A DNA stretch of 64,000 bases, taken from Phallus indusiatus (Eukaryota > Basidiomycota > Agaricomycetes > Phallales > Phallaceae). The DNA is taken from positions 372,001-436,000 of the forward strand of contig JAQFWX010000037.1 in the NCBI GenBank assembly GCA_027605045.1, read 5' to 3'. Position 1 is the first letter of the stretch, and each line of letters opens with the position of its first letter. Position numbers and translations under genes: made by a program. The notes below the pieces were generated by a model that searched no databases, was not told the DNA's origin, and was given only the letters and a program-made list of their open reading frames with translations. This document shows positions 21,618 to 36,341 of the stretch, one piece after another.

Positions 21618-21811
21618 ATCACCCTGGCCTTCTGGTGAGTTTCGATTTCAATCGTAGCAATAAGCTAGACTTGCTTACTTTCCTGCAGGGTTAAATAGTA
21701 TCTGTTCTCTTCAGTTTAACCACTAAATTGACCACGGTGCGATCATTATTGGTTAACGAATTTTTGTCGCCCTCCGTCCTTCAATCTCTGTTTGCACGCT
21801 CTCTTGACTTC
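21618..21811 (+). pseudogene. truncated, degenerate U2 snRNA copy that retains the intron
   Basis: Homologous to the U2 gene at 35128-35381. Exon 1 (21618-21634) reads ATCACCCTGGCCTTCTG. A 54-nt GTGAGT...CCTGCAG intron (21635-21688) sits at the same position. Next come ATAGTATCTGTTCTC, the IIa region (CAGTTTAACCACTAAA), a weakened IIb region, and GAATTTTTGTCGCCCTCCG including the Sm site. Defects: the GATCAAGT segment before the branch-pairing region is lost, GTAGTA has become ATAGTA, the upstream TATA is altered to GGTATACAG, and stem-loop IV is missing. It stops where the duplicated secreted-protein segment begins (about 21812). Confidence 0.75.
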
Positions 21812-22564
21812 CTGACAGTCTTTCATAGACCGTGTGAATAGGTCAACGTCAAAGTTTTGTAACTTTATTTATTTTTTATCGTTGAGTACTATTGTCTTAC
21901 TAATTCATGTTATCATCTGCACAGCTTTATCTTGCACTTCCTCCATCATCGCCGACACTCTCTTGGCTTCAGTAACGGGGTCGATGTCAATCTTATCAGC
22001 TCAAGGAGACCTCCATCCACTTCGGCGATACTGTTCCATATTGTTGCGTCCTCGTTCTAGTTATGAGAGATCGATTCATTATCTGGATCCAATATAATCA
22101 CGGATGGTCTTGTATCTCGCTCAGAGTTTATGATGTGTGGCTCTCACACATCCATCCACAGGAATAAAATCAGGATGACGGCCGACGGTGAAGATTAACA
22201 ATCAAAATCACCGGTTTCAGGATTGGGACGAGGCACCGGTATTGAGAAATAGAAATAACTCCCGTCGGCTTTGAGGCTATGATGATGGCTATACTTTCAG
22301 CCAGGAAACTCTTCTGTCAATCCTTTTGCCATTTAATGGTATGCATGTACCTCAGGCTCTGACTATCGTAAGAGATCACGCGCGCACGTTGAAGCTGAAG
22401 AAAACCTCGAACCCAAAATGCAAACGATGACAAACCAGCACCGCCTACCCGCTGTTTGAACGTTTACTAAGTACGGAGGGCTGCAGCTTAAAACGGGGGC
22501 GTGACCCCGATGCCTAGCGGCCCTATGCTTTCTCGGGACCTGCACTCCGAATCTCAAGCCTCTG

Positions 22565-22572
22565 TATATAAA
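22565..22572 (+). promoter_or_regulatory. TATA box of secreted protein A
   Basis: TATATAAA about 95 bp upstream of the ATG at 22667; the paralogue has TATAAA at 33245-33250. Confidence 0.5.
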
Positions 22573-22666
22573 TTGAATCACAGAATGATCATTTTTTCCC
22601 CAAGCCTACTATCATACCTTTAAATTTTTCCATCAATTTTTTATTCATTCAAATTCAAACATCGCG

Positions 22667-23652
22667 ATGTACTCTTTCAAAACCCCCTACATTTTTCTCG
22701 GGATGACCTTGGCCACCACAATATTAGCAGCTCCTTTTAAGTCGGATGTTTATGTTCGGCAGGACGTGACTCCGGATCTTGATGATATGATTAACCCACT
22801 TTCTGAGAGTGTTGTAAGTCTTACTGATGTCTGTATTACTCTGCCTTCTGCACATTGACTGAATTTATTTTTCCTCTTTCACTCTTCATCCGGATCAGGA
22901 TAGCCTCTCCAACAGTATTAATGGACTCACCCCCGATACTGATCCAACCACCGTCGAAGTAGGTCACTAATCAAGTTAAATCATTTCGTGCAGTCTCAAC
23001 TTCTATATCATGTCTCAGGAGTTATTCGAAGATTTCTCCATCGTCTCATCAAACTTGGATGCAGTAAGAACCCTTTGTATTGCCCTCGTTGTTAAGAACT
23101 GTGTCTTATATCACCCACAAATAGCTAACAAACAGTATCACTGTGGGTTTCAAATCTGTATATCCCAATATCTTAAATGAATTGAGTTTAATGTCAACAA
23201 AGACGATGTCATCTCTTGATCAACTTAGTCCTGAAGATGATCTAACCATCACGGATCTCCAATCGTTCATTGCTAAACTGGGCGGCCCCGGTCAAAAGCT
23301 AATCGAAAATGAGCCCGCCATCGATAATATACGTGCCCAAAACATTGTCTACGACTACCCTGACCACACAGACTTTACCGCCAGCCTCAAACAAGTGTAC
23401 CAGCAATATAGAAACGACGTTGGGGTAAGTCAGTTTAGCTATATAATATTATCACTAACGATGTTGTTTTGATTTTTTAAAGAGCCTTATAGTGACCATG
23501 CAAGCTAATTTTCCCAGCGTATGTGTTTTTTTTTCCTCCTAACGAATATCAGACACTCACAGTCATGCGTGTAGGATGTCCTAAGCCTGGTGACAAATCA
23601 GATGGATGAGGCATCAGCACTCTTAGACGTTGCTTCGAAGCTTTATCCATAA
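22667..23652 (+). CDS. small secreted protein A (possibly HsbA-like)
   Basis: The signal peptide is MYSFKTPYIFLGMTLATTI followed by LAAPF, then a predicted helical, cysteine-free mature protein with motifs such as PDLDDMINPLSESV, NSINGLTPDTDPTTVE, LDQLSPEDDLTITDL and FIAKLGGPGQKLIENEPAID. The last exon ends DEASALLDVASKLYP and TAA at 23650-23652. At least six short introns; intron positions match copy B. Size, signal peptide and helical repeats recall fungal hydrophobic-surface-binding protein A / cell-wall galactomannoprotein proteins, but this is tentative. Likely extracellular. Confidence 0.65.
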
Positions 23653-24149
23653 GTGAGCAGCTTATAGGTTCTTTTTGGGTTTGGAAACTGTAAATCGTCG
23701 ACATATTTATATTGTGTTTATATGGAAGTTATGAGGATCTAAGTTTTTTTTACCTGATTGATTCTCAAGAAAATAGAATCAGATGCCGAAGTAAATGTGT
23801 ACAAAATTTGTACATGATTCATCTCGCAATAAATAATGGTAAAATGAACGTCACGAACATTAACAACTCCAGGGACCCACCACATTAGCGCTTTGGTAAT
23901 CGGAATTCTCCGATTGATTTTCGCTGCGTACGTAATACGCCGGGAAAGCTGCAATCTTCAGAAGTTCAACTTAAACTTGACTTAAACTCATTAAACTTAT
24001 TTTATCTTTCACCCGATCCTTTCCGTATACAAACTGGGTTGTGTCGCGGAGGCTGTTCTTATTCCTAAGACCTCTTTCAGTCGAAATAACGACACCGCGG
24101 TGACGGAAACGCTGATCACTTGAAAAACGAAAAGAAAAGCTACTAGATT
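23653..24149. other. intergenic region with a short inverted homology
   Basis: No gene. Positions about 23818-23880 (CATCTCGCAATAAATAATGG onward) recur inverted at about 34610-34680. Confidence 0.5.
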
Positions 24150-32633: not shown

Positions 32634-34350
32634 TTGCTATAGGCCGTGTGAACAGGTCAATGTCAAGTTTTGTAGTGTTTGTTCCTGCCAGCTCAAGGAG
32701 ACCCCCATCCCACTTCAGCGTTATTGTTCCGCGTTATTGGGGCGTCCTCGTTCTAGTTACGACTCGGAGTCGCATTATCCAATATGATCACGGACAGTCT
32801 TGGGTCGCTCAAATTTTATGATACTTACGTTGCTCTCACAAATCCATTCACAGGAACGAAACCATGATGACGGTCGGCGGTGAAGACTAAAAATAAAAAT
32901 TATCGGTCCAGGCAGCACTGGTATGGAGAAACAACTCCGCTCGCCCTAAGGTTATGATGATGGCTGTACTTTCAATCAGGAAGCTCTTCCGTCGATCCTT
33001 TTGCATTTGGTGGCATGCGTGTGTCTCTGGCTAATCAGTTGAGGTAGTATCGTAAGAGATCATGCGCGCATGTAGAAGCCGATGAAATCCTCGAACCCAA
33101 AATGACAACGATGACAACCGGCACGGCCTATCCGCTGTTTAAACGTTTACTCCGGAGGTTTACAGCTTATTGGAATAATACAAGGGCGTGAACCCGACGC
33201 CTGTACTTTCTCGGGATCTTCACTCCGAATCTCAGACGTTTGCATATAAATTGATCCGGGCTAATGGTCATTTCTTCCCCAAGCCTACTATCATACCTTT
33301 AATTTCTTCTCTCAATTCTCTTTTTTCATTCAAATTCAAACATCGCGATGTACTCTTTCAAAACCGCCCACATTTTTTTCGGGATGACTTTGGCCACGAC
33401 AATAATGGCAGCTCCCTTTAAGTCGAATGTTCATGTCCGGCGGGACGTGACTACAGATCTTGAAAATATGATTAATCCAATTGCTGGGCGTACTGTAAGT
33501 CTTACTTATGTCTGTATTACTCTGCCTTTTTCACATTGACTGAGTTTATTTTTCCTTTTTCACTCTTCGTCTGGATCAGAACGACCTCGTCAATAATATT
33601 AATGGACTTACCTCCGATAGTGATCCGAACAACGTCGAAGTAAGTCACTAATCAAGTTGAATTATTTTGTGCAATCTAAACTTCTATATCATGTTCTAGA
33701 CAATATTCAGAGCTTTCAATACCATCGCAACAGAGTTGGATTCAGTAAGAACCATCTCCTTGCATTGCTCTCCTTTATTGGGAACTATGTCTTATATCAC
33801 CCATAAATAGCTAGCAAATAACATCACCGTGAGTTTTTAATTTGTATTCCAATATTTAAAACAAATTAAGTTTAACTTCAACAAAGGCATTGCCAACTCC
33901 TATTACTACTGATAATGTTCAATTCATCGTTGGCTTCCAAGATTTCTTCACTTTATTGGGCGACCCCGGTACAGATCTGCTCAATAAGAGTGCCGTTATC
34001 GATGTTATAAGTACCCAACACTTTGACTACGTCTTCCCTAACAACTCGAACTTCACCGACAGCTTCAAACAAACGTTCGGGCTATACCTAAACAAGGTTG
34101 GGGTAAGACAGTTTAGCTTGCGAATGAATATAATATATTATCACTACCGATAATTTTTGATTTTTTACAGAATCTAGTAACAATCATGGGGGACCAATTC
34201 TCCAGCGTATGTTTTTGTTTTGTTTTTGTTTTTTAAAAAAATTTCAAACACTCACAGTCATGCGTGTAGAATGTGACAAGCCTGTGGACAAATCAGATGT
34301 CTGGGACATTAGGAATCTTAGTCATCACTTTAGAGCTGTTTACTTGAGCG
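32631..34350 (+). repeat. duplicated segment, copy B (carries secreted protein B)
   Basis: Partner of copy A at about 21812-23660, same orientation. About 710 bp of non-coding upstream DNA, the promoter and the whole intron-exon structure are shared, so the duplication was at DNA level. Its 5' edge joins the REX1 fragment, whereas copy A joins the truncated U2. Confidence 0.8.
33348..34347 (+). CDS. small secreted protein B (paralogue of A)
   Basis: The signal peptide is MYSFKTAHIFFGMTLATTIM followed by AAPF. The mature part parallels protein A: TDLENMINPIAGR, NNINGLTSDSDPNNVE, ALPTPITTDNVQF, FFTLLGDPGTDLLNKSAVID and NFTDSFKQTFGLYLNKVG. The last exon ends NQMSGTLGILVITLELFT with TGA at 34345-34347. 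No disabling change was found, so it is probably functional. Charge and polar residues differ from A more than the signal peptide does. Family assignment (HsbA-like) is tentative as for A. Confidence 0.6.
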
Positions 34351-35127
34351 ACTCGGAGCAGCTTGTAGGGTTCTTTGAAAACCGTAAATTGTCAAGCTTC
34401 AATGGAAATTATTTACGTCTTGGTTTTTTTTTACCTAAGAATATTCTTACAATCAATTAATCACAATTGTACGTGGAAGGGGTATAGGGATCGGCACCGT
34501 GTCCGTTACACGTTGACTTGCGAGGGTGTCGTTTGTTCCACCCGCATACCGAATTACAACTTTTGATATGCGAATAATATCGCCAAGGCGATGGGTATGA
34601 TCCGTTGTTTATTGTCTTCCCGGAGTTGTTACAAATGTTCATGATGTTCATTTTACCATTATTTATTGCGAGATGAGAGATTATAGATGAAAGTGACCCG
34701 AAGAAATCATTATGTATACTTACTGTAAATGATTGTTTCCTTGAGATTTGATATACACATTGAGTCAGATCCGGAGTTGCCCGGACAGCTGAACTCTAAC
34801 CCATCCACATACAAAAATGTGCTGTATGTCCAAGCATTCGGGCTTTGAGTTTAGGGTTTGAAACGAGAGATTTGACCAAGTCCACCGCGTTAACAAGCTG
34901 TGACGCCACAATGCCCCAAACGCAGTGCAATGAACTCAACTAGAACAATTCTAAACAATCCTAAAGCGGTGGCGCCAGGAAAATCTCCGAAAAACGTCGG
35001 GTTCTTCATATCATTAAGCATATCTATAACTAACAACTCGGACAGAACTATGGCAACTCTCTTTCGTTTGAACCAAGCTTGTTCTTGCATAAAACGCAGA
35101 AAACTCGGCAATAGCTCAAAGTACTCG
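34348..35127. other. intergenic region 3' of both neighbours
   Basis: No gene supported. About 34610-34680 is an inverted copy of sequence found at about 23818-23880. The ORFs at 34.9-35.2 kb overlap the 3' part of the U2 gene and look spurious. Confidence 0.5.
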
Positions 35128-35381
35128 AATAAGACCCCTGACGACATAAGCTGGTACTGTAATAGCATAGTCATCGTACCCTTCCACGTGCAAGCAGAGG
35201 CCGAAAGACGGAGGGCGACAAAAATTGGCTAACCAATGTTGATCGCGGTGCGATCATTTTAGTGGTTAAACTAAAAAGAACAGATACTACACTTGATCTA
35301 AGCCTGCAAGAAAGGAACTTATGAGAAAGAAACTCTAGCTTATTGATTGAAGTCGAAGACTCACCAAAAGGCCAGAGTGGT
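35128..35381 (-). ncRNA. U2 spliceosomal snRNA gene interrupted by an intron
   Basis: Reverse-strand reading. Exon 1 (35381-35365) is ACCACTCTGGCCTTTTG. After a 61-nt intron, exon 2 starts GCTTAGATCAAG and continues GTGTAGTATCTGTTC with the branch-pairing GTAGTA at 35290-35285. Stem-loop IIa follows (TTTTAGTTTAACCACTAAAA), then a perfect IIb hairpin GATCGC-ACC-GCGATC (35255-35241) and an Sm site AATTTTTG (35226-35219). The terminal stem-loop IV has loop ATTACAGTACC (35163-35153), the U2B''/U2A' binding element. Length without the intron is about 193 nt, matching U2 (about 190). A TATA box lies about 30 bp upstream. The exact 5' and 3' ends are inferred from known U2 structure. U2 pairs with the pre-mRNA branch site and with U6. 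Confidence 0.9.
35304..35364 (-). other. spliceosomal-type intron inside U2 snRNA stem-loop I
   Basis: 61 nt, beginning GTGAGTCTTCG and ending TTTCTTGCAG, with a CTCAT branch-site candidate about 20 nt before the AG and a pyrimidine-rich 3' part. Removing it joins GGCCTTTTG to GCTTAGATC, restoring the universal U2 5' sequence exactly. It is the same size and type as the protein-gene introns around it. Confidence 0.85.
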
Positions 35382-35416: not shown

Positions 35417-36341
35417 CTAAACTGAAGACGCCGACCGTGCACAGACCCAAATGGTTCGCGTATCAGAGAGGCTGCAGAGGCATAAGTTGTACGGTGAATT
35501 AGAAAAGCCGTCATCAAGTGTTTAAGATCTGGAGCGGTTTTCCTCTCTCATGATCCTCTCCCCATCCTGGGCACATGTGTAATTTATGAAGCCTGGGTAC
35601 TCAAGAGATTCCCGAGCCGCGAATGTGCTTCGGAGATAAAACCAAGATCACTGGTACGTTTCTTTAAACCATTTCATGAGTATATTTTCCTTTCGCGCGA
35701 CCTCGGTTTATTAACCAGAGGCACATGCACGCGAATAATTCACATCACTAACCAGGTTCAAATGTGAGTACTACCTTTCATAACTTCCTGGCGCCATCGC
35801 CATACTGAGGGTTTTGTAAGGTGCACCATCCTCCAATGGCTGAATGACGAAACATTGGCGATCCGTTTCCTCTCTGCCTCTTATTTTCGACAGATTGGGC
35901 ATTGGATGTGCATTGATAGACGCTGCAATAAATTGCCCTGTTGCATACGGGGGTCCGCTAGCCTACCCAGTGATCGCCATTGAATAAATTCAGGACATTT
36001 AAAACTCATCAATGAACATCATAAAATGTTCAACATGAGATACTTAATGAGCTCAGTGGTTGAGTGCTTCCACGTCGGCGACATTGCATAGAGTAGCTTT
36101 ATAGGCTTGCGAGAAAACATCAATGTGCTACATGACTAATCCCTACATACGTGTGATTACTGAACTTCACATCGCCCCAATGGTGGGGAACAGTCGCGCT
36201 AGAGAAGATGGACAAAATTAGTAGTTATCGATGCAAGTCCATTTTGATTAGACCGTCCTCAAATTCGACTGTGAGCCTAGTAACTGATTCAACGAGAATA
36301 AATAGTGATAAGACTAACAAGGAAACGAAGATATATATACA
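35417..36341. other. intergenic region
   Basis: About 900 bp upstream of U2 and downstream of the F-box gene. No coding signal was seen. Confidence 0.4.

Follow-up and report, generated by a model that had tools for sequence, protein, structure and literature searches.

A Phallus indusiatus U2 snRNA gene split by a putative spliceosomal intron beside predicted U6-pairing bases, alongside intronless U2 copies

The window, that is, the whole stretch of 64,000 nucleotides analysed here, corresponds to C137:372001-436000 of an assembly of 67.2 Mb in 206 contigs. Pfam searches with 10 of the 46 window reading frames of 120 amino acids or more gave nothing at E 0.001, and for one window protein the best named relatives were from Sphaerobolus stellatus (62%) and Gautieria morchelliformis (45%), which points to the Phallomycetidae as the likely group. 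The minus strand carries a split U2 snRNA gene that runs from 35381 to about 35136, with the following features:

35437..35447, minus strand: upstream element (USE) GGTCTGTGCAC, seen in the U2 alignment and common to U2 and U4 genes of the same genome
35411..35416, minus strand: TATA box, 30 bases before the U2 5' end
35365..35381, minus strand: U2 exon 1, 17 nt, with a predicted U6-pairing element (CCACTCTG) and the 5' strand of stem I; 8-bp complement to U6 CAGAGTGG
35304..35364, minus strand: intron, 61 nt, GT-AG (GTGAGT ... CTCAT ... TTGCAG), absent from 12 of the 14 U2 copies over the cut-off
35332..35339, minus strand: intron segment GCTAGAGT, complementary to exon 1 ACTCTGGC; predicted lock of the precursor
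35321..35325, minus strand: branch-site candidate CTCAT, its A 18 nt before the intron 3' end; a motif match only
35136..35303, minus strand: U2 exon 2, 168 nt, to just past stem IV, with GCU/GAUC (predicted U6 pairing), GTAGTA, stems IIa and IIb, Sm site, stems III and IV
35285..35290, minus strand: branch-site pairing sequence GTAGTA, read from the sequence
35219..35226, minus strand: Sm site AATTTTTG, read from the sequence

An Rfam cmscan of the whole window, a search proposed in the initial annotation and run on the unspliced sequence, matched the U2 model RF00004 at 35317-35133 on the minus strand with 103.3 bits, against a gathering score of 46. The match is proper over exon 2; with exon 1 located 61 nt upstream, the first columns of the model have been forced onto the last bases of the intron, and the true U2 5' end is ACCACTCTGGCCTTTTG at 35381-35365. 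As expected of a U2 gene, the locus has an intact 5' domain, the GTAGTA sequence, an Sm site and stems IIa, IIb, III and IV, and the parts named in the initial annotation (GTAGTA, Sm site, stems IIa, IIb and IV, TATA box) are all present. The spliced length had been put at about 193 nt. Counting up to the third base after stem IV gives 185 nt, and a gene end that yields 193 nt is possible.

The USE and TATA box lie 30-66 bases before the 5' end, with a spacing resembling that of other U2 genes of the genome. The combined USE and TATA pattern had 107 matches genome-wide, overlapping matches at one site being counted more than once, vs 8 for a reversed control pattern. A similar arrangement occurs inside a dispersed, MITE-like non-coding element of about 690 bp with terminal inverted repeats TGTCGCAAAAA...TTTTTGCGACA, which contains an internal U2-type promoter (GGTCTGTGCGCA and TATA, similarly spaced) followed by a TAGTAG-rich stretch. 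This element was aligned in L059, L060, L064, L082, L083 and L085, and further places were indicated by the USE and TATA pattern.

RF00004 returned 15 matches in the genome, 14 of them over the cut-off; the 15th (39.8 bits, below the cut-off) is a degraded pseudogene. Twelve of the 14 copies read CCTTTTGGCTTAG unbroken, and the other two, the gene in the window and its partner on contig C151, have an insert there. The intron coordinates of the initial annotation, 35304-35364, hold, as the insert sits exactly where the 12 paralogs run unbroken. The first 67 nt of the spliced U2 are identical in all 14 copies. By flank similarity the 12 intronless copies form five groups of 2 or 3, apparently five intronless loci on two haplotypes plus two extra assembled copies, and the split gene is apparently one of six U2 loci, the remaining five being intronless. 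At one intronless locus, one haplotype (L009, C78:827117-828305) carries an apparent insertion of about 390 bp that separates the gene from its USE/TATA promoter, and the partner haplotype (L010) has the normal promoter-gene arrangement.

Contig C151 represents the second haplotype of the window: each of the five C151 stretches sampled (26 kb in all) has parts that match the window in order, with 88.9 to 99.9% identity, and about 4.2 kb of the C151 stretch L089 has no match beside it. The intron is therefore not confined to one assembled haplotype but is found on both, with 59 of 61 bases equal.

The intron interrupts U2 after the 17th base, between G17 and G18. Its 5' and 3' sites are consensus-like, and its exact removal restores the paralogous exon sequence. 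The CTCAT motif is weak and fits loosely, and the CTTAC of a decayed second copy described below is not kept in the whole copy. Three actin introns (52, 58 and 64 nt), chosen by eye at breaks of the reading frame, have the same kind of ends as the U2 intron. The intron is likely removed by the spliceosome, the machinery to which U2 belongs. The view of the initial annotation, an mRNA-type intron in stem-loop I of U2, is upheld by the exact restoration of the paralogous sequence, the end signals, the promoter, the compensatory changes in exon 2 (see below) and the presence on both haplotypes. A self-splicing intron of group I or II was also considered and rejected, only U2 having reached the gathering score in the whole-window cmscan.

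The position of the intron relative to predicted U2/U6 pairings was then considered. Exon 1 (CCACUCUG) contains an 8-bp complement to CAGAGUGG of the genome's U6 copies (-14.9 kcal/mol), a pairing known as U2/U6 helix II. At the start of exon 2 lie GCU and GAUC, able to pair with AGC and GAUU of the genome's U6 in what would be helices Ib and Ia. The intron junction lies directly 5' of GCU, the complement of U6 AGC, and hence beside catalytic snRNA residues, AGC being the U6 triad with which U2 GCU is predicted to pair. Since the opening of exon 2 is able to pair with U6, the insertion lies at the edge of the presumed catalytic helix. The U6 copies of this genome (L026-L032) have an extra hairpin, CGACC TTCG GGTCG, between the U2-pairing CAGAGTGG and the 3' end.

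A DNA search with an intronless U2 sequence had 18 matches. Besides the 14 genes and two pieces of the pseudogene, these were a partial U2 at 21.7 kb on the plus strand of the window and the C151 partner of this partial copy, which also carries the intron. The initial annotation had noted neither the partial copy nor the intronless loci nor the haplotype partner of the split gene. The partial copy in the window consists of the following parts:

21618..21634, plus strand: exon 1 relic of a decayed U2, 14/17 identical
21635..21688, plus strand: homologous intron of the decayed U2, 54 nt (GTGAGT ... CTTAC ... CTGCAG), 44/49 aligned bases identical
21689..21798, plus strand: exon 2 relic of the decayed U2, 91/110 aligned bases identical

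The alignment of the two introns has gaps of 1, 5 and 11 bases, and none of 5000 shuffles scored as high. In the exon 2 relic, 7 bases of the AGATCAAGTG core are deleted and no clear similarity extends past the stem III loop. The decayed copy and the split gene share an extra C and a preceding T (alignment columns 110 and 103), both absent from the 12 intronless copies. A neighbouring block of 1.7 kb is also duplicated (21997-23674 and 32689-34376, 75% identical). The decayed copy has the same intron at the same site, and therefore the intron is older than the local duplication, of which one product, judging from its sequence, has decayed.

The exons of the split gene were compared with those of the intronless copies. 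Exon 2 has 14 fixed differences from all 12 of them, and this drift falls in stems IIb, III and IV. In a model of 35 pairs from stems IIa to IV, laid out by hand from the Rfam alignment, the split copies keep 33 standard pairs, and the intronless copies 31 (ten copies) or 33 (two copies). Two C-G pairs, one in stem IIb and one in stem IV, have become U-A by two-sided change, setting the split copies apart from every intronless one; in stem III, one pair (102-119 of A1) is lost on both haplotypes. A covariation test on the 10 distinct sequences, in which related sequences can beat shuffles without any structure, counted 12 cells with two-sided change vs a shuffled mean of 3.8 (0 of 500 shuffles) and 6 pairs with two-sided change (reached by 12 of 500). 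Further pair types showed no excess in this test (14 vs 14.4 in shuffles; 402/500). Allele differences amount to 4 in the 185 exon bases, 2 in the 61 intron bases and about 2.6% over 4.7 kb of flanks; the exons are thus not clearly less diverged than the flanks, in a comparison of low power. A downstream 3' hairpin beats shuffles (under 5%) in 3 of the 5 intronless copies tested and is not significant in the intron-bearing copies (99/300 and 50/300 shuffles), and we dropped it as support for the split gene. On balance, the pattern of substitutions suggests that the split gene has changed as a used RNA would.

Folding of the unspliced RNA gave a further prediction. In the predicted fold, a pairing forms between intron GCUAGAGU and exon 1 ACUCUGGC, which would bury the 5' splice site in a stem together with the U6-pairing element; burial of this kind could slow splicing. 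The 8-bp match was reached by 29/2000 and 18/2000 shuffles of the intron interior for the two alleles, and the folding energy by 22/2000 and 9/2000; a separate test with 200 shuffles gave z -2.43 (2/200). This lock was found after the fact and is offered as a prediction; in the decayed copy, GCTAGA is retained and the complement to exon 1 is incomplete.

Taken together, we consider it quite probable that a 61-nt GT-AG intron splits this U2 gene immediately before the bases predicted to pair with the U6 triad, and that the precursor of the gene is spliced by ordinary spliceosomes into a working U2 variant. The precursor would be transcribed from the USE/TATA promoter and capped, and spliceosomes supplied with U2 mainly by the intronless loci would join its 17-nt exon 1 to exon 2. 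The spliced product could then enter snRNPs as a minor U2 isoform. A weaker part of this proposal is that the burial of the 5' splice site and the U6-pairing element may keep unspliced U2 out of spliceosomes. An extended form, which we regard as speculative and unlikely, would make the split gene the source of a dedicated isoform whose maturation reads out splicing capacity: the pre-U2 would stay inert through exon 1-intron pairing until a spliceosome opens and splices it, and the isoform, distinct in the sequence of stems IIb, III and IV, would add to the pool from the intronless loci.

Several other explanations were weighed against the proposed splicing of a functional precursor. The split gene could be a young pseudogene or a silent copy, with the intronless loci making all U2 and the intron being without consequence. 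The existence of apparently five intronless loci, the decay already undergone by the sister copy in the window, the flank-like allele divergence of the exons and the lack of a significant 3' hairpin in the split copies would all agree with this. We nevertheless regard it as unlikely, as a neutral relic would not be expected to keep the first 67 nt, the Sm site and the promoter intact, nor 33 of 35 pairs with two of them changed in a compensatory way; the decayed copy, by contrast, has lost core bases and its 3' half. An insert that stays unspliced as an enlarged stem I loop of a functional U2 appears very improbable. The terminal G of the intron does allow a stem I that closes a 65-nt loop in the unspliced RNA. 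The insert, however, bears splice-site ends, and taking it out recreates exactly the sequence found in 12 paralogs; folding of a 123-nt piece, moreover, favours the exon-intron pairing over stem I by 2.4 and 4.3 kcal/mol. It is just as hard to credit a closed feedback through which splicing of the split gene would determine the overall amount of U2. A U2-type intron by definition requires U2 for its removal, so the precursor needs it too, and the initial annotation had accordingly made the level of mature U2 depend on existing U2. The genome-wide search for other U2 loci that it had also proposed yielded apparently five intronless ones, which could supply U2 without splicing, and the claimed dependence of all U2 on the split gene is therefore undercut.

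How the intron of the split, presumably spliced gene arose is a separate matter, on which the initial annotation suggested a possible arrival by reverse splicing into U2 inside the spliceosome; copying into DNA would have followed. We hold this route to be conceivable but doubtful. The site fits, as it adjoins the presumed U2/U6 catalytic helix, and the same pattern has been used to propose reverse splicing for the U6 intron of fission yeast (PMC10484740). On the other side, the genome contains no near-identical donor, the gain is unrooted, and other routes of gain leave the same trace. A 67-base intron query against the genome, able to detect near-identical copies only, gave 2 matches, both alleles. 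The diverged copy at 21635-21688, which shares no word longer than 12 bases with the intron, escaped this query, so only near-identical donor or introner copies are excluded. When both introns were compared by BLAST (word size 7) with the window and 104 partly overlapping loci (369,449 bases), matches were confined to the introns themselves, their allele copies and words of 12 bases. The searches thus lend no support to an introner family or a donor intron, of which they could miss diverged members. Between gain and loss, parsimony favours a gain, although unrooted, with one split locus and its relic vs apparently five intronless loci.

Other small RNA genes were also searched for. No intron-sized insert was present in the 7 U6, 6 U5 and 5 U4 matches of the snRNA model searches, which could miss copies split elsewhere. 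U1 (RF00003) and U3 (RF00012) had no match in the genome, and as the control genomes were also silent, limits of either the models or the search may account for it; a pattern for the U1 5' end had 15 matches, none resembling a U1 gene by eye. For 5.8S rRNA, 24 of the 26 matches listed were over the cut-off, with scores from 81.5 to 160 on contigs C5, C21, C42, C56, C84 and C140, a range that suggests heterogeneous rDNA copies. A 24-base U2 core was found in no viral contig and in 4 stretches (3 records) of prokaryote genome bins, which we took for contamination by non-fungal eukaryotes. Among five such cores from prokaryote bins, three show the junction directly and are intronless, another begins within exon 2, and the last belongs to a U2 fragment that lacks the 5' domain.

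Introns in spliceosomal RNAs have been used to argue for the location of the catalytic centre and for intron spread by reverse splicing. Here, one genome has a split U2, intronless U2 loci and a decayed intron-bearing copy, on both haplotypes. A single organism would thus allow tests of whether the intron was gained or lost, of how the isoforms are used and of what becomes of unspliced U2, free of the problem of an essential gene.

Introns in snRNA genes are known, one U2 gene included, and are rare inside spliceosomal RNAs. That U2 gene belongs to Rhodotorula hasegawae, a basidiomycete, and its intron, described by Takahashi et al. in 1993 (Mol Cell Biol 13:5613), is reportedly about 60 bp long and situated just downstream of the branch-site pairing region. 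Introns are likewise reported from U6 snRNA genes, both in Schizosaccharomyces and in other fungi (Tani and Ohshima 1989; Canzler et al. 2016). The Rhodotorula gene resembles the present one in being a basidiomycete U2 gene with a short spliceosomal intron. It differs in that its intron is reportedly downstream of the branch-pairing region, whereas the present intron is upstream, in stem I. Here, moreover, only one of apparently six U2 loci is split, intronless paralogs coexist with it, and the host is an agaricomycete. An mRNA-type intron in the U2 gene of Rhodotorula hasegawae is the subject of a title cited in PMC2586383. No report of a U2 intron in mushroom-forming fungi was found in the literature searched, which was covered in part. 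What is new is the restriction to one of several U2 paralogs, the fungal group and, as far as is known, the intron site.

The fungal U6 introns are like the present intron in being short, spliceosomal and near catalytic residues; U6 is a pol III gene, unlike U2, and the 7 U6 copies found in the present genome are unsplit. U3 and U6 are named as small structured RNAs often split by introns in PMC5832005. There, 138 of 310 fungal U3 genes are described as split, with introns almost all in the 5'-most stem-loop, and split and intronless U3 copies occur together in 8 of 147 genomes, that of Coprinopsis cinerea included. U3 acts outside the spliceosome, unlike U2. Otherwise, fungal U3 resembles the present U2 as a small structured RNA with an intron in the 5'-most stem-loop, canonical intron ends and a mixture of split and intronless copies.
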